Shown piece after piece: positions 8,833-40,401 of a stretch of DNA of 64,000 nt. The stretch's first letter is position 1, and every line of letters starts with the position of its first letter. The position numbers and the translations under genes were made by a program. The DNA is from Paracoccaceae bacterium (GTDB lineage Bacteria > Pseudomonadota > Alphaproteobacteria > Rhodobacterales > Rhodobacteraceae). The notes below the pieces were generated by a model that worked only from the letters and a program-made list of their open reading frames with translations, did not search any database and was not told where the DNA came from. The stretch is from NCBI GenBank assembly GCA_021775315.1, contig JAJFIC010000076.1, positions 1 through 64,000 of the forward strand. Reading direction: 5' to 3'.

Positions 8833-9710
8833 AATAACTTGACGCTGGCCAGACCATCGGCTGGGGTGACGGAACAACAGATGCTCATCAGGGTTCTGGG
8901 TTCTTGATAGGGCCACGGCTGGCCGCGATGCAGCGTCGCGCGTTCGTCCCAGATCAGAACGTCACCGACCTGCCAGTTGTGGGAATACACGTTTTCCGGG
9001 CGGGTACAGAACGCGACGGCCTGATCAATCAACGCCTCACCTTCCTTCAGCCCCAAACCCTCAATCGCAAAAGCATGCGAGGCAATGAACAAGGCCTCCT
9101 CATCCGTGACCGGATTTCGCCAAATGGCCCGCCAAGGACGATCTGGCCACTTGGTCATAGTGTTCAAGGCCGCCAGTTCAGCCGAGACTTTGGCGCGTGA
9201 ATGCGACAACCGATGCCACAGGATCGCATCGCGGAAAGGTGCCTTCAAATCCTCGGGCATTTCCGCCCAGCCAACCCGGGTCGAGGCCAGTTCCGTCTGC
9301 CCGCCAGTTGACGGCACGACCTTTGCGGTCAAGATGTTGACAAGGGCAGGGGTCGGCAAGAACGTGCTATCCGTGTGCCACAACATATTGCTTTGCAGGT
9401 TCAGTGTATGCAGGTCTTCGGCATCCGTGACACCCCCGTCGGCAGTTTCATTTGACACCGGTGACACGTTGAATTCAACGTCACGCCCCGCCGCCATTGC
9501 GTCACGGTTTTCAAGCGGGCCAAACAATTTCGCCAGCCGGGTATGGGCCGCGTCGTCCATGGATTGGGCCGGAAATAGCAGGGCTGAATGGGCATCAAAC
9601 AGGGCGCGAATTTCGGGGTACAGATGGGTTTTACTGACCTCGGAAAGATCGACATCATGGATGATTTTGCCAAATTTCGGATGTAGTTCTGTGGTCTTCA
9701 ACGCCATCAT
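8829..9710 (-). CDS. TauD/TfdA-family Fe(II)/2-oxoglutarate dioxygenase
   Basis: This 293-residue protein has the facial-triad motif HTDSTF (His-x-Asp), the distal His in TLHRGQPW, and the R region that binds 2-oxoglutarate near EPRTL. Overall layout (start ELHPKFGKII, VLIWDERATLHRG near the end) resembles TfdA-like alpha-ketoglutarate dioxygenases more than classical taurine dioxygenase. The substrate is unknown. The start has two tandem ATGs (9710, 9707) behind an AAGGA ribosome site. It lies 87 bp downstream of paaX on the same strand and may be the last gene of the paa operon, though its reaction has no known place in phenylacetate breakdown. Confidence 0.86.
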   Translation of the reverse strand: MMALKTTELHPKFGKIIHDVDLSEVSKTHLYPEIRALFDAHSALLFPAQSMDDAAHTRLAKLFGPLENRDAMAAGRDVEFNVSPVSNETADGGVTDAEDLHTLNLQSNMLWHTDSTFLPTPALVNILTAKVVPSTGGQTELASTRVGWAEMPEDLKAPFRDAILWHRLSHSRAKVSAELAALNTMTKWPDRPWRAIWRNPVTDEEALFIASHAFAIEGLGLKEGEALIDQAVAFCTRPENVYSHNWQVGDVLIWDERATLHRGQPWPYQEPRTLMSICCSVTPADGLASVKLF

Positions 9711-9800
9711 GATGTCCTTTTACACGCCTTGATATGGGCCAAGTCTGGCGGCAGGTTTTCGATCTGTCCAGAGCCGTTGCGCCACCATGATGTCGTTTTA
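9703..9800. repeat. Direct repeat of a translation-start region (two 20-bp copies)
   Basis: The copies are 9703-9722 and 9781-9800. They match at 18 of 20 bases, and each reads, on the minus strand, as an A-rich/GAC ribosome-site-like stretch followed by an ATG. The left copy is the real start of the dioxygenase gene; the right copy overlaps the paaX stop codon. Such a repeat suggests a local duplication of the initiation region. Confidence 0.6.
9720..9788 (-). CDS. Candidate 22-codon leader ORF ahead of the dioxygenase gene
   Basis: Reading leftwards, an ATG at 9788 opens 22 codons and stops with TAA at 9720-9722, just in front of the AAGGA ribosome site of the dioxygenase gene. The bases around this ATG nearly duplicate those around the dioxygenase start (see the direct repeat at 9703-9800). 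The product (MVAQRLWTDR..., ending YQGV) has no recognisable motif. It could be a leader peptide for translational coupling, or only the by-product of a local duplication. Support is positional only. Confidence 0.3.
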   Translation of the reverse strand: MVAQRLWTDRKPAARLGPYQGV

Positions 9801-10643
9801 AGAACAGGCGCGCGTAAGGTTTGCAAGCGTCGGTCTGGGCATTTGATCCAGCAGGGCAGACACCCGTTCGCGGCAAGCACCACCGCGCCAGTCACCCGGG
9901 TAAAACATCGCCGGTAAATCCGGATGGCGCAATAACAGCCGACGCCAGTTGTGAACGATCAGCACCCGCAACGTCGCGACCTCGACCGCGTTCAAAGGCC
10001 CCGCTTGGGCATGGATTTCGGCGACCAACCCAAGGGTGCTGTCCAGTTTGGCATATTGGCCCGTCAGGCCAACCGGGGCATTTGCCGCCCGCAGCCAATC
10101 GGGGATATTGCCGATTTCCCCCTTTAAAATGAGGCAATCAAGCGGCGCGTCCTTGCCTGAACCTGCGCCAAGATAGGTGCCGGGCGCCAAAGTGACATAG
10201 CCTTTGGCGGTCAAACGCTGCTCAGATTCTGCGCGGTTGATTTGGCGCATCGGTTGGGCAACTGCCAGATGCCAGTGTTTTGGCAGGGTGGCCTTGCGGG
10301 CGTAAATTCGGGGCCGAGCGGCCAGAGTTTCACCAAAACCCGTCTCGCTTAAGCTGTAAAGACTGGTCCGGCCGGACTTTTCGCTGATGATCCAGCCGTC
10401 CTTGCGCAACCGATGCAGGGCCACACGCATGGCCTGCGGTTTGATGCCCATATTGGCACAAAGGCGCGACAGAATTGTGCCGCTAATCTGATCGGCGCGA
10501 CCTTGCGCCAGATCACCAAACAGGGTGACGATGACCGACCAAACCCTGAGATCACCGACCTGACACAGCGCGCTGATGGCCTGTTGCATCTCGGGCGCAA
10601 ACGGCGGGTCTGGCTGAAAACCTTGGGCCTGATGCCGGGTCAT
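9798..10643 (-). CDS. paaX: PaaX, phenylacetyl-CoA-responsive transcriptional repressor
   Basis: This 281-residue protein has the PaaX layout: an N-terminal winged helix (residues about 15-95, including KPQAMRVALHRLRKDGWI followed by SGRTSLYSL), then the central and C-terminal PaaX domains (RVALHRL recognition region; WRRLLLRHPDLPAMFYPGDWRG is the typical C-terminal signature). PaaX represses paa genes and is released by phenylacetyl-CoA. Its start is 8 bp after the paaE stop on the same strand, so it is probably the sixth gene of the paaABCDE transcript and autoregulated. Confidence 0.93.
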   Translation of the reverse strand: MTRHQAQGFQPDPPFAPEMQQAISALCQVGDLRVWSVIVTLFGDLAQGRADQISGTILSRLCANMGIKPQAMRVALHRLRKDGWIISEKSGRTSLYSLSETGFGETLAARPRIYARKATLPKHWHLAVAQPMRQINRAESEQRLTAKGYVTLAPGTYLGAGSGKDAPLDCLILKGEIGNIPDWLRAANAPVGLTGQYAKLDSTLGLVAEIHAQAGPLNAVEVATLRVLIVHNWRRLLLRHPDLPAMFYPGDWRGGACRERVSALLDQMPRPTLANLTRACS

Positions 10644-10651
10644 CGCCGCGC

Positions 10652-11728
10652 CTATTGATCGTAATCGACGACCAGTTTATCGGTCAGCGGAAAACACTGG
10701 CAGGTCAGAACATAACCTTGCGCCACTTCATAATCTTCAAGCGCATGGTTTGCGACCATTTCAACCTCGCCCTCCAGAACCTTGGCCCGGCAGGTGGAAC
10801 AGACCCCGGCCTTGCAAGCAAACGGCGCGTCAAGATTATTTTCAATCGCGGCTTCCAACACGGTTTGGCCGTCCTTTGGCATCTGAAACGCCCGCGTCGT
10901 GCCGTCAATCGTGACGGTGGCCGACGTGGTTTTCGCGGTTTCGCCTTCGACCTTCAGGCTGGCTTTGCGCGCCGCGCGTCCCGGCTGACCACTACCAAAC
11001 AGCTCAAACTTGATCTGATCGTCGGACAGGCCGTGATCGTGTAACGCCTTGGTAATGCCCAACATCATCGGTTCAGGGCCGCAGATAAACGCGGTGTCGA
11101 CTGATTTGATGTCGATCCAATGTTCAAATAATTGCGCGCATTTTTCCGGCGTAACCATGCCGGTAAACAGGTCGATTTCCTGCGCGTCGCTTTCCAGAAC
11201 ATGGATAATCGTCAAACGACCGAGATAGGAGTTTTTCAGATCCTCAAGCTCTTCACGGAACATGATCGTATTGACGCCGCGATTTGCGTAAACCAGCGTG
11301 AATTCCGATGCTGGTTCGCGTGCAAGGGTGGTTTTCAGGATCGACAGCACCGGTGTGATGCCCGAGCCGCCGGCAAAGCCCAGATAGTGCTTGCTGGCCT
11401 TGGCATCAATCGGGTTGTGAAACTTGCCCATCGGCGGCATCGCTTCAAGCGTGTCACCGGGTTTGAGTTCCTCATTCGCCCAGCTGGAAAACGCGCCGCC
11501 ATCGACGCGTTTTATGCCGACTTGCAGCAAACCATCGTCAAGACCTGCGCAGATCGAATAGGAACGCCGTAGTTCCTGGCCATCGAAATCTCGCCGAAAG
11601 GTCAGGTATTGACCGGGGATATAGTCAAATTCAGCCGCCGCACCGTTTTGCGGTGCCAGCGTGACCACGACCGCGTCGCGGATGGTTTTGTGGATGTCGG
11701 TGACGGTCAGATTATGAAAACGGGCCAT
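10652..11728 (-). CDS. paaE: PaaE, reductase subunit of phenylacetyl-CoA epoxidase
   Basis: This 358-residue protein combines a ferredoxin-NADP reductase module and a plant-type ferredoxin. The FAD-binding LRRSYSICAG segment lies near residue 54, the NAD(P)-binding GGSGITPVLSILK near residue 121, and the C-terminal 2Fe-2S motif CKAGVCSTC plus the distal Cys in LTCQC near residue 310-345. PaaE feeds electrons from NADPH to the diiron PaaA of the epoxidase that makes ring-1,2-epoxyphenylacetyl-CoA. It follows paaD after 12 bp. Confidence 0.95.
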   Translation of the reverse strand: MARFHNLTVTDIHKTIRDAVVVTLAPQNGAAAEFDYIPGQYLTFRRDFDGQELRRSYSICAGLDDGLLQVGIKRVDGGAFSSWANEELKPGDTLEAMPPMGKFHNPIDAKASKHYLGFAGGSGITPVLSILKTTLAREPASEFTLVYANRGVNTIMFREELEDLKNSYLGRLTIIHVLESDAQEIDLFTGMVTPEKCAQLFEHWIDIKSVDTAFICGPEPMMLGITKALHDHGLSDDQIKFELFGSGQPGRAARKASLKVEGETAKTTSATVTIDGTTRAFQMPKDGQTVLEAAIENNLDAPFACKAGVCSTCRAKVLEGEVEMVANHALEDYEVAQGYVLTCQCFPLTDKLVVDYDQ

Positions 11729-30639: not shown

Positions 30640-32586
30640 TTAGCGGTTCATTCGGTTTTCGATCAGATCCTCTACCACTGACGGGTCGGCCAAGGTAGAT
30701 GTGTCGCCAAGCGCGCCATAGTCATTTTCGGCAATTTTGCGCAGGATGCGGCGCATGATTTTGCCTGAACGGGTTTTTGGCAGGCCCGGTGCCCATTGGA
30801 TAAGATCCGGTTTGGCGATTGGGCCGATTTCCTTGCGGACCCAATCAGACAGCTCTTTTCGCAATTCTTCGGTATATTCCTGACCCGCCATCAGGGTGAC
30901 ATAGGCGTAAATGCCCTGACCTTTGATGTTATGCGGATAGCCGACAACAGCGGATTCCGAGACTTTGGGATGTGCCACAAGCGCACTTTCGACTTCGGCG
31001 GTGCCCATCCGGTGGCCCGAGACGTTGATGACGTCGTCGACCCGGCCTGTGATCCAGTAATAGCCGTCGGCATCGCGACGGCAACCATCGCCAGTGAAGT
31101 AATAGCCTTTGTAATCAGCGAAATAGGTCGACACAAACCGATCGTGATCGCCGTAGACCGTGCGCATCTGGCCGGGCCAGCTGGCTTTGATACAAAGCAC
31201 GCCTTCGGCCTCGATCGTGGTGATTTCCTGACCTGTTGTTGGTTCCAGAATAACCGGCTCGATGCCGAAAAATGGCCGGGTGGCTGAACCGGGTTTGGTT
31301 GACACCGCGCCGGGCAGGGGGGTTAACAGGTGGCCGCCGGTTTCGGTCTGCCACCATGTGTCGACGATCGGGCAGGTGCCGCCGCCGACGATGTCGTTAT
31401 ACCACGCCCATGCTTCAGGGTTGATCGGCTCACCCACTGTGCCAAGTACTTTGAGCGAAGACAAATCGCATTTGGTCACGAAATCATCGCCCTGCGCCAT
31501 CAGCGCACGAATGGCCGTCGGGGCGGTGTAGAACTGATTGACCTTGTGTTCTTCGCAGACCTGCCAGAAGCGCGAGGCATCCGGATAGGTTGGGATGCCT
31601 TCAAACATCAGCGTTGTTGCGCCATTGGCCAGCGGGCCATAGACGATATAGCTGTGGCCGGTGACCCAGCCCACATCAGCCGTGCACCAGTAGACATCGC
31701 CGTCATGGTAATCAAACACCAGTTCATGGGTCATCGCCGCAAACACCAGATAGCCGCCCGTTGTGTGCACGACGCCCTTGGGCATGCCGGTGGAGCCGGA
31801 TGTGTAAAGGATGAAAAGCGGATCTTCAGCGTTCATCGGTTCCGGTGCGCAATCAGGCGAAGCCGCCGCCATCAATGCGGTGTAAGAATGATCGCGCCCT
31901 GCCTGCATCGGCACATCGCCGCCCGTGCGTTCAACCACCAGCGTGGCGACATCGCCTGCAATTGCCAGCGCTTTGTCCACATTGGTTTTAAGCGGGGTAT
32001 TGCGACCGCCGCGCGGGGCCTGATCCGCCGTAACCACCAGCGAGGCCGCGCTGCCCTGAACGCGGGCTGCCAAGGCTTCGGGGGAAAAACCTGCAAAAAC
32101 AATGGAATGGACAGCGCCGATGCGGGTACAGGCCAGCATGGCATAGGCCGCTTCGGGGATCATTGGCATGTAAAGTATGACGCGATCACCTTTGCCCACG
32201 CCAAGGGATTTATACACATTGGCCAGTTTGCTGACCTCGGAATGCAGTTCGTTATAGGTGATGTAGCGCGATGGCGCGTCAAAATCATCCGGCTCCCAGA
32301 TGATCGCGGTTTGCTCGCCGCGTGTTGCCAGATGCCGGTCAACGCAATTGGCTGACACATTCAGTTCGCCGTCTTCATACCATTTTACCGATACGTCCGG
32401 ATGCGCAAAAGTGGCGTTGCGCACTTTGGTATAAGGTTTGATCCAGTCAAGCCGTTTGCCTTGCTCGCCCCAGAACGTGTCGGGGTCATTGATCGAAGCC
32501 GCGTACATTTCGTTGTACTTGTCTTCGTCAATCAGCGCGTTTTTGACGAATTCAGATGAGGGGGCGTAAAGTTTTGAAGCAGTCAA
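30640..32586 (-). CDS. acs: Acetyl-CoA synthetase
   Basis: This 648-residue AMP-forming enzyme converts acetate, ATP and CoA to acetyl-CoA. Motifs are the phosphate-binding [19 protein letters not shown] near residue 265, [10 protein letters not shown] near 410, [31 protein letters not shown], and the regulatory acetylatable Lys in [11 protein letters not shown]. Length is normal for Acs. It stands alone, convergent with the pot operon. Confidence 0.96.
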
Positions 32587-32663
32587 GGTTCGGTCCTTTG
32601 TTGGCGTGATGGCACAATGTTCACTTGAATATAGGGCTGCAAGCTATGCAGGCAATTTCTATA

Positions 32664-33488
32664 TTATCCAGCGTCCTTTTTCATTTCTTCAATCCGCTGC
32701 AAAGCCTCGTCGCGGCTTTTGCGAATATTCGGGCGGAATTCCTGATTTTCAGCCCGAGAGCGGATTTCAGCCTCGGTTTCAGGCAAGGTATCGTAGCGCA
32801 CTGACCCCAGCGAGCTGGCGATATTCAGTTTCTTGCCCCTTTGGGCATAGGATACTGATGCCTTCATCGAGATTCTGCAATTGCCGTAATTCACCAAGAA
32901 ATACCACTTTTTCTTGGTTGCGGCGATCTGCTTTTCAATGAAGTCATAAAACCCATGTACGTCGCTGTTATTATCAAAGCTGAAATTGGTGAAATCAACA
33001 TCCATGATCTGCTTATCGTCCAGAAAACCGATACGCGGCGCAAAATCTTTGTCGGTGTATTGCGACGGCTCTAACCGACCGGCGGTGCGGGCATCGGGTT
33101 TGTCCCGGCGCATTTTTTCGACCCGTTCGACCGCTTCTTCGCGGTTGGTGAAAAAGTTGTCGCCAAAGAATTCCATATTGGGACGCTTGGCGATTTCCAG
33201 GCGCGTGCGTTCGCTGGCGTCATAACGCACAGTGCCAAGGGAATGGGCGAAATTCAAACGCGAGCCACGCCGCGAATGGGCAGGGCGCGCCGAAGATTTG
33301 ATATCGCAGTCGCGGTAATTAACCAAAAAGTACCACTTTTCGTGGCCACTTGCCGACAACGCCGCCTGAATTTCGTCATAGACCGCGTCTACTTCACGTG
33401 ACGTCACTAAGATTAGGTCGGAAAAATCGACCTCCATCGTTTCCAGATTTTCAATAAACTTTATCCGGTCGTTTGCTTTAAAATCCAT
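32664..33488 (-). CDS. Unrecognised protein made of two copies of one domain
   Basis: I do not recognise this 274-residue protein. It is an internal duplication: residues about 1-129 and 147-272 align end to end. Shared blocks are M-[DE]-V-D-F (18-22, 162-166), KWYFLVNY (51-58, 194-201), LG[ST]VRYD (84-90, 227-233) and the charged helix EEAVERVEKMRRD / DEALQRIEEMKKD (117-129, 260-272). There is no signal peptide or membrane segment, so it is probably cytoplasmic. I start it at the ATG at 33488 because that Met aligns with the start of the second copy; a longer frame to 33563 exists and neither start has a strong ribosome site. It follows the liv operon on the same strand after about 140 bp, but a functional link is not shown. 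Confidence 0.8.
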   Translation of the reverse strand: MDFKANDRIKFIENLETMEVDFSDLILVTSREVDAVYDEIQAALSASGHEKWYFLVNYRDCDIKSSARPAHSRRGSRLNFAHSLGTVRYDASERTRLEIAKRPNMEFFGDNFFTNREEAVERVEKMRRDKPDARTAGRLEPSQYTDKDFAPRIGFLDDKQIMDVDFTNFSFDNNSDVHGFYDFIEKQIAATKKKWYFLVNYGNCRISMKASVSYAQRGKKLNIASSLGSVRYDTLPETEAEIRSRAENQEFRPNIRKSRDEALQRIEEMKKDAG

Positions 33489-33627
33489 TATTTTGTCCCA
33501 CTTTTGTCTGAGCTCGGCCGCCCCCCGCCAATACATGGCTTGGGTTGGGATCAGACTTTTCATTCACATTGTCAGACTTGATCGCATTGCCAATTCCCCC
33601 GGCAATTTTGGATCGTATCGACGGAAA

Positions 33628-34395
33628 TTAGATGGCCAGGTATTCCTCGCGCAGCGCATCGTTTTCAAGCACTTCAGCCGCTGTTCCGTCAAAGACGATT
33701 TGACCGGAATCAAGAATAAGCGCACGATCCGCCAACTTAAGGGCCGCGACCGCGTTTTGTTCCACGATGATGGTGGTAATGCCGTGCGACTTAATCTCGG
33801 CCAGAGTGCGTTCAATTTCCTGAACAACCACCGGCGCCAGACCTTCATAGGGTTCATCCAGCAACAAAAGCTTGATGTCACGCGCCAGAGCACGGCCAAT
33901 GGCCAACATTTGCTGCTCGCCACCTGACAGGGTTGTGCCTTCTTGCGTGCGACGTTCGCCGAGGCGCGGGAACAGTTCATAAATGCGCTGGATTGACCAA
34001 CCGATCGGCGGGGCAATTTGCGCCAGTTGCAGGTTCTCTTCAACCGTAAGACCCTGAATAATCCTGCGATCTTCAGGGACCAAAGCCACACCGCAGGTCG
34101 CCGCCTCGTACGATGCCATGTTGTGCAGGGGTTGGTGATCCAGCCAAATTTCGCCATGTGTGACCAAGGGCACCCCAATGCGCGCAATAGACCGCAATGT
34201 TGATGTTTTACCCGCACCATTGCGCCCCAACAGGGCTAGAATTTCGCCCTCATGGATATCAAAGCTGACACCTTGAACGATATAGCTTTCGCCGTAATAG
34301 GCGTGGATGTCATGCAGCGAAAAGTAAGCCGGTTGCGATGCCCCGATATGTTTTGTGGAAACCGCGTCGGAAAAGTCTTTGTCCGTAATTGTCAT
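33628..34395 (-). CDS. livF: Branched-chain amino-acid-type ABC transporter ATPase (LivF-like)
   Basis: This 255-residue ABC ATPase has Walker A GRNGAGKTS near residue 55, the signature LSGGEQQMLAIGRAL, and Walker B LLLLDEPYEGLAP. The family mark MLAIGRAL and the ERTLAEI region are LivF-like. It is last of five co-directional transporter genes and overlaps livG by 4 bases. Confidence 0.93.
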   Translation of the reverse strand: MTITDKDFSDAVSTKHIGASQPAYFSLHDIHAYYGESYIVQGVSFDIHEGEILALLGRNGAGKTSTLRSIARIGVPLVTHGEIWLDHQPLHNMASYEAATCGVALVPEDRRIIQGLTVEENLQLAQIAPPIGWSIQRIYELFPRLGERRTQEGTTLSGGEQQMLAIGRALARDIKLLLLDEPYEGLAPVVVQEIERTLAEIKSHGITTIIVEQNAVAALKLADRALILDSGQIVFDGTAAEVLENDALREEYLAI

Positions 34396-35150
34396 ACTTG
34401 TGCCTCGCCCAAATAGGCTTCACGAACTTTCGGATGCCCTTTAATGTTGTCAGGAATGTCTTCTACGATCACGGTTCCCTGCGCCAGAACGCTGATCCGC
34501 TCGGCCAGTGAAAACACCACATGCATGTCATGTTCAATGATCGCCAGCGTGATGTTGCGCTGTTCCTTGATCTGTTTCAACAGATCAATGGTGTTGTTGG
34601 TGTCGGCCCGCGCCATACCGGCGGTCGGCTCATCCAACAACAACAGTTTCGGATCCTGAGCAAGACACATCGCCATTTCCAGCCGCCGTTTGTCACCGCG
34701 TGACAGGCTGCCGGCATGCATGTCTTTTTTATCCTGCATGTTGACATCAAGCAGCATCAGTTCCGCCTTTTCAATGATGTCCGTTTCTGAACCCACGCTT
34801 TCGATTGCATGCATCCGGAACGCGCCATCGCGTTTTGCGAAACACGGGATCATGACGTTTTCAAACACCGTCAGTTCGGTGAAAATCTCAGGTGTCTGAA
34901 ACACCCGCGAAACGCCCAACTGGTTGATCTTGTGCGGCTTGACACCCAACAGGGAATGGCCGTCAAAGATCACCGATCCGGTATCCGGGATCAACTTACC
35001 GACAAAGCAGTTCAGCAGGGTCGATTTACCGGCACCGTTTGGGCCGATGATGGCGTGGATGGTGTTTTCCTGGATGTCGAGATTGACATCATCCAGTGCC
35101 TGCAGGCCACCAAAGCGTTTTGAGACGTTTTTGACTTCAAGAATGCCCAT
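34392..35150 (-). CDS. livG: Branched-chain amino-acid-type ABC transporter ATPase (LivG-like)
   Basis: This 252-residue ABC ATPase has Walker A GPNGAGKST near residue 37, the signature LSRGDKRRLEMAMCL (a variant with SRGDK in place of SGGQQ), and Walker B LLLLDEPTAGMA, where the MA replaces the usual LN/LD. The GVSRVFQTPEIF Q-loop is LivG-like. It starts 11 bp after livM. Confidence 0.92.
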   Translation of the reverse strand: MGILEVKNVSKRFGGLQALDDVNLDIQENTIHAIIGPNGAGKSTLLNCFVGKLIPDTGSVIFDGHSLLGVKPHKINQLGVSRVFQTPEIFTELTVFENVMIPCFAKRDGAFRMHAIESVGSETDIIEKAELMLLDVNMQDKKDMHAGSLSRGDKRRLEMAMCLAQDPKLLLLDEPTAGMARADTNNTIDLLKQIKEQRNITLAIIEHDMHVVFSLAERISVLAQGTVIVEDIPDNIKGHPKVREAYLGEAQV

Positions 35151-35161
35151 TGCAGCCTCCT

Positions 35162-36397
35162 TTACTCTGCCACATGGGGCGTTGATTTCGGATGATGTTG
35201 TTTGTCAGTGCCAGCGCCGTCAGATTTCTTGCGCTTAAACAAGTTCATGATGCGTTGTCCGCCTTCGACCAGCCCACCAGGCAGGAAGATCACGACCAGC
35301 ATGAACAGGCCACCAAGGGTCAGGTGCCAGCCTTTGCCGACGAAGATATGCACGAACCAGACAACCGCGTCTTCCATGCCGTCAGGCAGCCAGCCAAACC
35401 ACCCATGCAGAACCGTATCGTTGATTTTCGAAAAGATGTTCTCAAAATACTTGATAAAGCCAGCGCCGATCACGGGGCCAATCAGGGTGCCCGCGCCGCC
35501 AAGAATGGTCATCAGCACGATCTCGCCCGATGCTGTCCATTGCATCCGCTCAGCCCCGGCCAGCGGATCCATGCTGGCCAGCAACCCACCGGCAAGACCG
35601 GCATACATGCCGGAGATTACAAAAGCGGCAAGGGTGTAGGGACGTGTGTTGATACCCGTATAGTTCAGGCGCGTCTGGTTGGTTTTAACCGCGCGCAGCA
35701 TCAGCCCGAATGGCGAGCGGAAGATGCGCAAAGCGATGTAAAACGAGATCAGCATAATGATCGCGGACAGATAATAGCCGGTGTTGAACTGGAACAACCA
35801 TGACCCAATCTCAAGATGGTAAGTGTCACGCATCTCAAAGCCATTAACCAGCGATGGCGGCAAGAGATTGGTGCTGGGCAACGTGCCGTTGGTGTTCATG
35901 CCGTCCAAAATGCGCACGTCATCAAGGGCCAATTGCAGGCCGGTTTCGCCGTTGGTCAGCGGGGTCAGCACCGAGTAAGCGATGTTAAAGCTCATCTGGG
36001 CAAAGGCCAGCGTCAGGATCGAGAAATAGATGCCCGAGCGTCTAAGGCTGATATAGCCGATCAACAAGGCAAACAGGCCGGATACGACAATGGCCAACAG
36101 GATCGCCGGGATGACGTTCATGCTCAGCAGTTTGAACATCCAGACCGCTGAATAAGAACCGACACCCAGAAACGCGGCGTGGCCGAAGGACAGGTATCCG
36201 GTCAGACCGAACAGGATGTTAAACCCGATGGCAAGAATGCCAAAGATTACAAAGCGTTGCATCAGGTCAGGGTAACCAGCGTTGAACTGCGCCATGCCTG
36301 ATCCTTGGGCGAATGGTTGCAGCAAGAAAGGGGCCAGCAGCACCATACCGGCGACGATCAACAAAAGGGTGCGGTCTTTTTTGGCTAGATTGAACAT
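35162..36397 (-). CDS. livM: Branched-chain amino-acid-type ABC transporter permease (LivM-like)
   Basis: This 411-residue protein has about nine to ten hydrophobic segments and the LivM/UrtC motifs [22 protein letters not shown] and [12 protein letters not shown]. Length is at the upper end for LivM because of a loop (about residues 150-200) and a C-terminal charged tail rich in K and H. It starts 2 bp after the livH stop. Confidence 0.92.
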
Positions 36398-36399
36398 GC

Positions 36400-37431
36400 T
36401 TATTCCTCCATCACGCCTGCACGGCCCATAAGCCCGCGGGGTCTTGCCAGCAGAATGATAATTGCAACCAGATAGATTATGATCTGGTCAATACCGGGAA
36501 AGTACACTTTCACCTGGTTCATCGAGGCAAAGCTCTCAAGGATACCCAGCAAAAAGCCCGCCAAAACGGCGCCGGGCAAACTGCCCATGCCGCCAACAAC
36601 AACAACAACAAAGGAAAGGACCAGAAAATCCATGCCCATATGGTAATTCGGTGAATTGATCGGCGTGTACATCACCCCGGCCACCCCTGCGACGGCTGCC
36701 GCGATGCCGAACATGATGGTGAAACGTTTGTCGATATTGATGCCCAGCAGGCCGACAGTTTCGCGATCGGCCATGCCCGCCCTGACAACCATGCCAAAGG
36801 TGGTATAGCGCAGAAAGGCAAACACACCGCCGATAACCAGACCGGCAAAGACAAAGTAAACCAAGCGCCAGTAGGGATAGATGATGGCGTTTTCGGCATA
36901 TCCGATCAGCACCCCAAAATCAAAAGAGCCACGGAACATATCCGGGGCGGGGGTCTGGATTGGGTTGGCGCCAAAGAAATATTTGATAATTTCCTGCAAC
37001 ACGATGGCCAGACCAAAAGTCACAAGGATCTGGTCGGCATGTGGGCGGTGATAGAAATGTTTGATCAGTCCGCGTTCCATCGCGTAGCCGACAAACAACA
37101 TCACCGGGATCGAGAACAAGATCGCCAGCGGTACAGCCCAATCTATCAGACCATTGCCGGTACTCTCGCCGAACCAATGCACGATATAGGCGGTTTTCAC
37201 CTCTAGCGGTTCACCCAGAAAGTTCTTTTGGGTCGGGTCAAGCGTCACAAACGAAAATGACAGTATTTTGCTGAACGTAACGGCTGTAAAAGCCCCGATC
37301 ATGAAAATCGCACCGTGGGCGAAATTGACGACGCCCAGCGTGCCAAAGATCAGCGTCAGGCCAAGTGCGATCAGCGCATAGGCACTGCCCTTGTCCAACC
37401 CGTTCAGCAGTTGCAGAAGGATAATGTCCAT
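36400..37431 (-). CDS. livH: Branched-chain amino-acid-type ABC transporter permease (LivH-like)
   Basis: This 343-residue permease has the LivH signature [27 protein letters not shown] near the N-terminus and about eight hydrophobic segments. I start it at the ATG at 37431, with GGTGGGA five bases upstream; a GTG nine bases earlier is possible. It has an extra loop (about residues 50-85) compared with the shortest LivH proteins. Confidence 0.92.
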
Positions 37432-37484
37432 AGATCCCACCCATATTTATGTTGGAAATTTAGGTATGTTAAATACCTCAAAAT

Positions 37485-37551: not shown

Positions 37552-38892
37552 TTAGCCAGCGTTACACTGACCCAAAGCGCCACCGGCGAACATTGGGTGA
37601 TCCACTGCGTACTCAACCTGCGAACGTGGGGTCACTTCGACAACTTCAAGAAGGTCGAATTCCGATGTTGGGTTTTCTTTACCCTTCACAACCAGCACGT
37701 CTTTGAAGCACTGGTGGTCTTCGGCGCGGTATTCAACATCACCGTTGCCCAGACCCGAGAATTTGTAACCTTCCAGAGCTTCAGCAACACCACATGGGTT
37801 ATGTGTGCCAGCGCGTTCACACGCATCCGCATAAAGCAGGGTCTGACAGTAAACCGTGTGTGCAGCCTGACTTGGCGGGAAGCCGTATTTGGTGCCGAAG
37901 GATTTAACAAAAGCTTTCGAGCCTTCATCCGTCAGGGACCAATGCCAGTTGGTTGAACCGAAGATACCTTTAACGTTGGCACCAGCACCACGAGCCATCA
38001 GGCGCGAATACAAAGGCACAACGATTTCAAAGTTCTTACCGTTAACCTGCTTGTCGCGCAGACCAAACTGAACAGCAGCGGTCAACGAGTTGACCATGTT
38101 CCCGCCGTAGTGGTTCAGAACCAGAACATCAGCACCAGAGTTCAGAACAGGCGCCACATACGAGCTGAAGTCGGTTGTCGCAAGCGGTGTCAGCACGTTG
38201 TTGACAGTTTCCCAGCCTTTGCCCTCGGTCGCAGCAGCGATCGATTCTTGCTGAGTCCAGCCCCAAGTGTAGTCGGCTGTCAGGTGGTAAGCGCGACGGT
38301 CGGAACCGTAAAGTTTCTCAAGCACAGGGGCCAGAGCCGCACCAGACATGTAACCGTTAAAGAAGTGACGGAAACCGTTGGCTTTCTTATCTTTACCAGT
38401 TGTGTCGTTCGAGTGGGTCAGACCAGCCATGAAGATCACGCCAGCGTCCTGGCACAAGCCCTGAACAGCAATCGCAACACCCGAAGAAGAACCACCAGTG
38501 ATCATCACTGCGCCGTCTTTTTCGATCATGGATTTCGCAGAAGCACGTGCCGCGTCTGATTTGGTCTGCGTGTCGCCAGTTACGAACTCAACCTTGCGGC
38601 CAAGAATACCGTTACCTTTAAGCGCATCGGACGAGAATGTGTTCATCATCCCGCCGTCGCCGCCACCATTCAGGTGCTCAACAGCCAGCTCATAAGCGCG
38701 CAGCTCATCTGCACCTTCGTCCGCGTAAGGACCAGTTTGTGGAACGTTAAAGCCCAGAACAACCGAACCACCCGATGGCTCGTTCATATAAGCACCAGCA
38801 GAGCCGGTGAAGACCAGTGGCATCGCCATGCCAGCGCCAGCAACGGCACCAGTTTTAAGCAGACCCCGACGTGTCGGATTAATAATCGACAT
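37552..38892 (-). CDS. livK: ABC transporter substrate-binding protein (LivK/amide-type), Tat signal
   Basis: This 446-residue type I periplasmic binding protein has a twin-arginine signal (PTRRGLLKTGAVAGAG, cleavage near SAGA). The mature protein shows the Leu/Ile/Val-binding fold features, such as LGFNVPQTGPYADEGADELRAYELAVEHLNGGG. Its length and Tat export fit the amide/urea-type branch of the family more than classical LivK, so the substrate may be an amino acid or a short amide. It is the first gene of the minus-strand livKHMGF-order operon. Confidence 0.85.
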   Translation of the reverse strand: MSIINPTRRGLLKTGAVAGAGMAMPLVFTGSAGAYMNEPSGGSVVLGFNVPQTGPYADEGADELRAYELAVEHLNGGGDGGMMNTFSSDALKGNGILGRKVEFVTGDTQTKSDAARASAKSMIEKDGAVMITGGSSSGVAIAVQGLCQDAGVIFMAGLTHSNDTTGKDKKANGFRHFFNGYMSGAALAPVLEKLYGSDRRAYHLTADYTWGWTQQESIAAATEGKGWETVNNVLTPLATTDFSSYVAPVLNSGADVLVLNHYGGNMVNSLTAAVQFGLRDKQVNGKNFEIVVPLYSRLMARGAGANVKGIFGSTNWHWSLTDEGSKAFVKSFGTKYGFPPSQAAHTVYCQTLLYADACERAGTHNPCGVAEALEGYKFSGLGNGDVEYRAEDHQCFKDVLVVKGKENPTSEFDLLEVVEVTPRSQVEYAVDHPMFAGGALGQCNAG

Positions 38893-39108: not shown

Positions 39109-40401
39109 ATGCCCCGCACATTGTTGGGATCGCGCATTCGCGAACGTCGCGAGGCAATCGGCCTTAAACAAATAGAGGTCGCGCGCAAATCGGGCATCTC
39201 GGCGCCCTATCTGAACCTGATCGAGCACAACAGACGAAGAATCGCCGGCAAGGTGCTGATCGACATCGCTGGCGCATTGGGGCTGGAAGTGTCGAGCCTG
39301 CTGGAAGGGGCCGACAGCGATCTGATCCAAAAGCTGCAAAATGCAGCCGCGCGGGATGTCACGGGCGAAGCAGGTGAGGTCGAACTGGACCGGGCCGAAG
39401 AACTGGTCAGCCGCTTTCCCGGTTGGTCGCGTCTGCTGGCAAATCTTGAGGATCGGACACAGCAATTAGGCCAGACTGTTGACGGCTTGTCTGACCGGTT
39501 GACCCATGATCCGTTTCTGGCCGAAAGCCTGCACGAAATCTTGTCGAGTGTCACCGCGATCCACGCGACCTCGGGTATTCTGACCAACAATCCGGCCATG
39601 GAAGGTTTGCAGCAGCGCCGCTTTCAGGCCAATATTCTGGAAGAAAGCGCGCGATTGTCTGAACTGTCACAAGGTCTGGTCAGCTATTTCGATCAACAGT
39701 CAGAAACCGAACAATCGCTTTCAACCCCTCTGGACGAGGTCGAGGCGTTTTTGGAAGGCCACGGGTTTCACTTTGCCGATCTGGAAGCCGGCAAAACCAG
39801 CATAGCGTCATTGATCGATCGGGCGGACGCGCTGATTTCGCAGGCATCACGTCAGATGGCGGCCTCGGCCTTGCAGCTTTACCTGGATGATGCCGGTTTG
39901 ATGCCTTTGCCCGCATTTTTGCGCAGTGCTGAAACCGTCGCCTACAGCCCATCTGCATTGGCGCGAGAATTCAGTGCGCCGATTGATGCGGTTTATAGAC
40001 GTTTGGCGTTTTTGCCCGATGATCCAGACCGTCCCGATTTTGGTCTGATCAGTTGCGACGGAACGGGCGCTGTTTTGCTGCGAAAGCCGCTGCAAGGGTT
40101 TGCCCTGCCGCGTTATGGCTCTGCCTGCGCGCTGTGGCCACTTTATCAGGCGATGACGCGCCCGCATGTGCCGATCACCGCAGATCTGCGCACTACCGAA
40201 AACCGGATTTTCCACGCGACCGCGCAATCAGGCTATTCAAACCCAGCCGCCGAAGTGCCGGTTTTGCGCGCCACAATGATCTTCCGATCGGCAGTAGGCA
40301 GCGAAACCGGACAGATACCGCCGCTAGAGATCGGGCTAAGCTGCCGGATTTGCACCCGCAGCGATTGCCCGGCCCGGCGGGAATTGTCGATCCACGGCTG
40401 A
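39109..40401 (+). CDS. XRE-family regulator with short-chain acyl sensor domain (ScfR/RamB-like)
   Basis: This 430-residue protein has an N-terminal XRE helix-turn-helix (about residues 8-65: RIRERREAIGLKQIEVARKSGISAPYLNLIEHNRRRI), a middle region, and a C-terminal short-chain fatty-acyl regulator domain ending in a Cys-containing segment (CRICTRSDCPARR). Related proteins (RamB, MccR, PrpR types) control acetate, propionate or glyoxylate-cycle genes in response to acyl-CoAs. An AGAGG site precedes the ATG. Its targets are not evident from the neighbours. Confidence 0.88.
   Translation: MPRTLLGSRIRERREAIGLKQIEVARKSGISAPYLNLIEHNRRRIAGKVLIDIAGALGLEVSSLLEGADSDLIQKLQNAAARDVTGEAGEVELDRAEELVSRFPGWSRLLANLEDRTQQLGQTVDGLSDRLTHDPFLAESLHEILSSVTAIHATSGILTNNPAMEGLQQRRFQANILEESARLSELSQGLVSYFDQQSETEQSLSTPLDEVEAFLEGHGFHFADLEAGKTSIASLIDRADALISQASRQMAASALQLYLDDAGLMPLPAFLRSAETVAYSPSALAREFSAPIDAVYRRLAFLPDDPDRPDFGLISCDGTGAVLLRKPLQGFALPRYGSACALWPLYQAMTRPHVPITADLRTTENRIFHATAQSGYSNPAAEVPVLRATMIFRSAVGSETGQIPPLEIGLSCRICTRSDCPARRELSIHG

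Follow-up and report, generated by a model that had tools for sequence, protein, structure and literature searches.

STAS domains are regulatory modules that bind partners or ligands. One of them, MlaB, is required for the stability of the ABC ATPase MlaF, and another, that of YchM/DauA, is part of a SulP transporter. To our knowledge, little is known about the post-translational control of Liv-type importers. In the MlaB-MlaF pair, STAS helices 1-3 bind the ATPase and helix 2 is the centre of the interface (PMC7367683). The authors of the 2020 MlaFB report state that they found no other PDB entry combining a STAS with an ABC domain (PMC7367683). In this study, we describe a protein built of two predicted STAS-like domains, whose gene follows the ATPase genes of a Liv-type (HAAT) importer operon. 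The gene lies in a 64,000-nucleotide stretch of a Paracoccaceae bacterium genome (contig JAJFIC010000076.1), hereafter the window.

A sequence-only reading of the window had placed an open reading frame at 32664-33488. The coordinates are correct; the frame lies on the minus strand and runs from 33488 to 32664 with 274 intact codons, and translation of the plus strand gives 6 stops. An alternative in-frame ATG upstream, at 33563, would give a protein of 299 aa. The two similar copies that this reading had described, with KWYFLVNY, LG[ST]VRYD and a closing charged helix, were found with all these elements in both halves. Residues 8-129 and 152-273 share 48 identities in 122 positions (39%; BLASTP E = 1e-31), and local alignment of one half against the other scores 244, whereas 2000 shuffles average 28.4 (sd 4.8, maximum 58). 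Both copies also model confidently, and the proposed tandem duplication of a folded domain is borne out. The frame is taken as a real gene because it is conserved in frame in relatives and because dN/dS was 0.08-0.20 in seven close pairs of relatives, none of which included the window protein; an eighth pair gave no value owing to saturated dS. These ratios indicate that the family is under purifying selection. In the region 32400-33800, both strands together held four promoter-like sites (shuffle mean, 1.1) and five terminator-like sites (shuffle mean, 2.0). The original observation was confirmed as correct and useful. The features of the locus are listed in Table 1.

Table 1. Features of the tandem STAS-like locus in the window.
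Feature	Position	Strand	Basis
Tandem STAS-like protein, 274 aa (P0001)	32664..33488, stop included	minus	translation, relatives, AlphaFold
Copy 1, STAS-like domain, residues 5-132	33093..33476	minus	folded alone and VIA-align
Copy 2, STAS-like domain, residues 149-274	32667..33044	minus	VIA-align
Acetyl-CoA synthetase (acs), 77 bp downstream	30640..32586	minus	NCBIfam TIGR02188, 1005.8 bits (cut-off 724.95)
ABC ATPase, LivF-like (ATP2), directly upstream; proposed partner	33628..34395	minus	ORF; same order in relatives
ABC ATPase, LivG-like (ATP1); proposed partner	34392..35150	minus	ORF; related loci
Permease 2, Liv-type (HAAT) importer	35162..36397	minus	ORF; order kept in 20/20 related loci
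Permease 1, Liv-type importer	36400..37440	minus	ORF; related loci
Periplasmic substrate-binding protein (Peripla_BP_6)	37552..38892	minus	Pfam PF13458, E 1.6e-66
ScfR/RamB-type XRE regulator, divergent from importer operon	39109..40401	plus	PF09856 ScfRs, E 1.6e-10; RamB model 103.5 bits, below cut-off 700

The importer operon, the STAS-like gene and acs lie on one strand. The gene had been placed at the end of an ABC operon. This held in that the last ATPase gene lies 139 bp upstream of it, but acs continues on the same strand after a gap of 77 bp. The view that an extra protein is unexpected in such an operon was upheld by 20 loci related to the window's operon (W-type), drawn from the 28 genomes that encode a closely similar W-type binding protein; the STAS-like gene was missing from all 20, and acs was the next gene in 14. 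Residues 114-193 of the divergent ScfR/RamB-type regulator gave a weak histidine-kinase match (CreC, E 2e-5); this stretch is perhaps HisKA-like, as in the single-copy STAS relatives described below.

No credible match for the window protein was obtained in Pfam, NCBIfam, PHROGs or PDB sequences, in agreement with the earlier failure to recognise a catalogued family. PF01740 STAS, PF13466 STAS_2 and PF11964 SpoIIAA-like matched 0 of 73 family members at E <= 0.01, and at E <= 10 none of these Pfam STAS families matched the window protein or the 10 members scanned. PF22893 ULD_2, a ubiquitin-like family, gave weak matches in 16 of the 73 members (best E, 1.7e-4), which counts against a clean absence of hits; this identity was set aside because the predicted structures resemble STAS domains instead. 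No signal came from hhalign comparisons with small PF11964 and STAS_2 alignments, though the test has low power, since these two STAS families score 8.7% to each other. An IMG/VR pattern scan with the window protein found no match, and tblastn against PLSDB with L045, the Ruegeria sediminis relative, returned none at E 1e-5. Among the literature matches listed, no paper dealt with this family, and no paper was found that combined a STAS domain, CoA transferase and acyl-CoA.

Relatives were nevertheless found. The family is present in 12 of 101 near genomes, the window's own included, as ten two-copy proteins and two single-copy proteins; single-copy homologues, whose existence had been left to be checked, are therefore real, and the class-level profile search described below added more. 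A scan of one genome per species (84,980 species) gave 93 relatives, the best 80 of which were fetched and were mostly from Rhodobacteraceae according to their record titles. The main alignment (A2) comprised the window protein and 72 of the 80 relatives (73 rows); L060, L100, L102 and L106 were left out as odd or split, and L064, L070, L094 and L096 as extras. Alignment A5 held the window protein and 51 of the A2 relatives, and alignment A3 held 19 of 30 picked domains. The relatives make up a conserved family, found for the most part in Rhodobacteraceae, that is absent from Pfam and NCBIfam. A domain tree was built from 26 two-copy proteins of the 73 and four single-copy ones. Holding all first copies together was not rejected (p-AU 0.586), which accords with a single ancient duplication.

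AlphaFold modelled the whole window protein, with 73 sequences, at pLDDT 89.1 and pTM 0.76, and copy 1 alone at pLDDT 90.8 and pTM 0.83. By VIA-align, copy 2 matched 4xs5 (Z 12.4, 2.3 A over 114) and the anti-anti-sigma chain B of 1til (Z 12.1, 2.7 A over 113), and copy 1 matched 2q3l (Z 9.6, 3.1 A over 103) and the stressosome entry 2vy9 (Z 9.3, 4.2 A over 106). Foldseek E-values were modest (best 0.085 for the whole protein and 0.0057 for copy 1, none at 0.001 or better), and its top ranks all contained STAS domains: the top 18 rows for the whole protein and the top 37 for copy 1. The prediction that each copy is a STAS-type (SpoIIAA-like) domain is well supported because STAS domains rank first in both comparisons despite the modest E-values. 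The structural check on a single copy, suggested by the sequence-only reading, thus returned STAS domains as its best-ranked matches. That reading had also allowed for a nucleic-acid-binding domain; because the predicted fold is STAS-like instead, a DNA-binding role was set aside as unsupported. Assignment to a well-characterised family by a profile search, which the reading had named as its refutation, did not come about at the sequence level, whereas the fold comparison lands in a well-characterised fold; membership in a catalogued STAS sequence family is, unlike the fold, not supported.

The three groups of structural neighbours differ from the window protein in different ways. SpoIIAA, RsbS and stressosome STAS proteins share the fold (Z about 8 to 12), but structural alignments with them show 5 to 15% identity, and the window protein has neither their phospho-acceptor as a conserved feature nor a Pfam STAS match. 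The DUF3478/PF11964 SpoIIAA-like proteins (2q3l, 2ook) also share it, with Z 10.8 between 2q3l and copy 2, whereas their profile matches no family member and the profile-profile comparison, a weak test, was silent. PF11964 proteins are themselves sometimes tandem, with two matches per frame in four related genomes. These pairs (L228, L230, L232 and L237) apparently represent another STAS duplication. Entry 3ny7 (Z 8.4, 3.4 A over 114) shows the YchM/DauA STAS domain in complex with ACP; this domain is alike in fold and in linking transport with acyl metabolism, but it shares 7% identity and sits inside a transporter.

Conservation within the family is highest in beta 3 (WYFLVN) and beta 4 (LGSVRY). 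Helix 2 carries an invariant Arg and starts with Trp in 72 of 73 A2 rows, in copy 1 and likewise in copy 2. The sole exception in both copies is the window protein (R68 and S211), which is also unusual at the neighbouring positions 62, 64, 208 and 209. Where helix 2 begins, at positions 64-70 and 207-213 with equivalence taken from secondary structure, the 73 rows have no conserved Ser/Thr. Within this range the highest Ser/Thr count was at position 66 (S in 19/73), and position 209 is mostly A, E or G. Nearby, Ser/Thr is commonest in copy 1 at position 61 (43/73: T in 34, S in 9), which lies seven residues ahead of helix 2, and the matching place in copy 2 is mostly Cys.

These residues bear on a switch resembling an anti-sigma-factor antagonist, in which phosphorylation by a SpoIIAB/RsbW-type kinase, and dephosphorylation, of a Ser/Thr where helix 2 begins would release a transcription factor. 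The fold matches to SpoIIAA, RsbS and stressosome proteins would suit such a switch, as would the HisKA-like hairpin of the single-copy relatives. However, a classical STAS phospho-switch is unlikely on these sequences because the helix 2 start has no conserved Ser/Thr in either copy; position 61 lies seven residues before it, and the HisKA-like part falls just under the Pfam cut-off and by eye has no phospho-accepting His. We consider the anti-sigma-type switch as a whole very improbable.

The common setting of the gene differs from that in the window. In 70 of the 80 relatives a PaaK-like CoA-ligase gene adjoins head-to-head, and in 59 of the 80 the gene is flanked on its other side by the ATP2 gene of another Liv-type operon (O-type), which runs on the opposite strand and has its end no more than 600 bp away. 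Only L105 (1/80) has the gene beside a W-type ATP2 on the same strand. A check of neighbours, as the sequence-only reading had proposed, shows that the gene lies repeatedly next to Liv-type importers and to CoA-forming enzymes. Thirty O-type loci were kept from 48 genomes with the ligase: in 26 the ATPase and ligase genes abut (3 to 309 bp), three have the STAS-like gene, and one has no nearby ATPase gene. The O-type slot of the window's own genome is empty, with 3 bp between the genes as read at the locus and 8 bp between the search matches, and two genus mates with the gene (L016 and L017) carry it in that slot. The place after the W-type ATP2 is used by the two-copy L105 and also by the single-copy L026; L105 and the window protein are not sisters on the two-copy protein tree, in which long branches make placements uncertain. 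Both L105 and L026 stand at the end of an importer operon, and neither acs nor a PaaK-like gene was found in the stretches covered. Eight of the 80 relatives lie in other locations (L051, L054, L055, L057, L082, L083, L088 and L104), and L106 ends at a contig edge.

One explanation of the window's setting is that its copy was relocated and is diverging with little or no function left, its place beside the importer and acs being accidental. It would account for the long branch of the window protein (1.53), the loss of both conserved Trp residues together with the odd residues around them, and the varied locations of the family, including transposase-like genes (by eye) beside L029. Against it, the frame is intact over 274 codons, copy 2 still shares 63% identity with its nearest relative, L105 and L026 have the gene in the same place, and the family is under purifying selection (though the pairs measured do not include the window protein). 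We regard this explanation as unlikely.

The reading that we favour, tentatively and at somewhat less than an even chance, is by analogy with MlaB on MlaF: the protein would act in the cytosol, regulating Liv-type (HAAT) ABC importers post-translationally or serving them as an accessory subunit, and would bind their ATPases. In this role it may help to turn the uptake of nutrients on or off. The best-ranked STAS matches of both copies, the ligase and O-type ATP2 neighbourhoods, and the slots that are empty in relatives without the gene (26/30 O-type and 20/20 W-type) fit this role. The gene also directly follows ATP2 on the same strand in three separate lineages (the window, L105 and L026), and helix 2, which forms the centre of the interface in the MlaB-MlaF precedent, here carries the invariant Arg and the widely kept Trp. 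The likeness to MlaB (PMC7367683) comprises a STAS-type fold, a gene beside an ABC ATPase gene and proposed binding through a helical face. MlaB is a minimal STAS domain lacking the fifth strand and the last helix, whereas the window protein keeps the last helix in both copies. Further differences are that the window protein has two domains per chain and a Liv-type importer as neighbour rather than the Mla lipid transporter, and that MlaB has Thr52 whereas this family has no conserved Ser/Thr at the helix 2 start.

Several observations argue against the importer-regulator role. Most sampled homologous importers manage without the gene, whereas MlaF needs MlaB to be stable. In the common context the gene is transcribed against the direction of the importer and stands between the importer and ligase genes, and eight relatives are elsewhere, as in L054, where the gene precedes an ftsW-like one. 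The window copy itself has neither conserved tryptophan. The O-type ATPase bears no special imprint of gene presence: among its 289 columns, 8 tell the 68 rows with the gene from the 26 without (shuffles 0.3), and in the PaaK-like ligase 20 of 424 columns discriminate (shuffles 1.4). Both excesses are as expected from kinship alone, and these alignments give no convincing signal of ATPase coevolution. The helical subdomain of the O-type ATPase showed a weak excess (permutation p 0.045), in a region picked post hoc and confounded by kinship.

Related domains were found outside the tandem proteins. A class-level profile search matched 10 of 385 genomes, the window's own included. The single-copy proteins carry a HisKA-like hairpin in front of the STAS-like domain; three of the four scanned scored 26.4, 22.7 and 24.2 bits for HisKA (Pfam cut-off, 26.9), and by eye the phospho-accepting His is absent. 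In six genomes (E 6.1e-6 to 5.5e-13) a more distantly related domain sits C-terminally in CoA-transferases about 650-690 aa long, in frames of 653-733 aa. Two of the CoA-transferases L111-L116 were scanned (L111 and L112): CoA_trans was confirmed in both, and neither Pfam nor NCBIfam matched their C-terminal domain. Compared by hhalign, the STAS-like and CoA-transferase C-terminal domains gave 98.5% over 126 columns, and 22 control windows gave at most 1.15%. The reverse search with the CoA-transferase domain (16/385 genomes) returned two hairpin-type proteins (E 9.4e-7 and 8e-4), and a phylum-level search (11/398 genomes) added six further frames of 651-741 aa. Through this homology the CoA-transferase domain gains a likely fold.

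This reciprocal relationship favours the chief rival, in which the protein is an acyl-CoA or CoA-enzyme module. It would bind CoA thioesters or dock on CoA ligases or CoA-transferases (Acs in the window, PaaK-like enzymes elsewhere) and tune acyl-CoA formation, the importer being a mere pathway neighbour. The ligase that adjoins in 70 of the 80 relatives, acs in the window and the ACP-bound YchM STAS domain speak for this role, and the CoA-transferase domain, which is not ABC-linked by architecture, speaks against the importer. On the other hand, L105 and L026 have no acs or PaaK-like gene in the stretches covered, and L119 lies downstream of a TRAP-type transporter (by eye). We judge a role on the CoA ligase/CoA-transferase side possible but somewhat improbable.

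If the protein does regulate a Liv-type importer, its two STAS domains in one chain could contact both nucleotide-binding domains of a LivG/LivF-type heterodimer. The signal read would, speculatively, be the status of the acyl-CoA formation that follows uptake; this is the most likely signal because genes for acyl-CoA-forming enzymes are adjacent and CoA-transferases contain a related domain. The window species has the gene in a different Liv-type operon from that in the two genus mates, between the ATPase gene and acs, and the partner of the protein may have changed because the helix-2 Trp is lost in both copies. A fuller version, in which the tandem protein grips both ATPases of a Liv-type amino-acid/carboxylate importer with one domain each, couples uptake to CoA activation, constitutes a second independent STAS-ABC pair after MlaFB and descends from a single-domain hairpin-fused form, would follow the same analogy but seems rather doubtful. 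A STAS-like family beside Liv-type importers and CoA-forming enzymes makes the question of importer control testable.

Some relatives have other genes close by. The tandem STAS gene at L054:7899-8819 stands among cell-wall genes, with a murD-like gene upstream and an ftsW-like gene next downstream (by eye). In L029 the STAS gene and its PaaK-like neighbour have transposase-like genes (by eye) on both sides, at L029:5455-6605 and 9551-10867, which agrees with gene mobility. Related proteins that look caspase-like by eye are encoded close to the STAS gene at L016:9831-11477 and L021:6008-7672.
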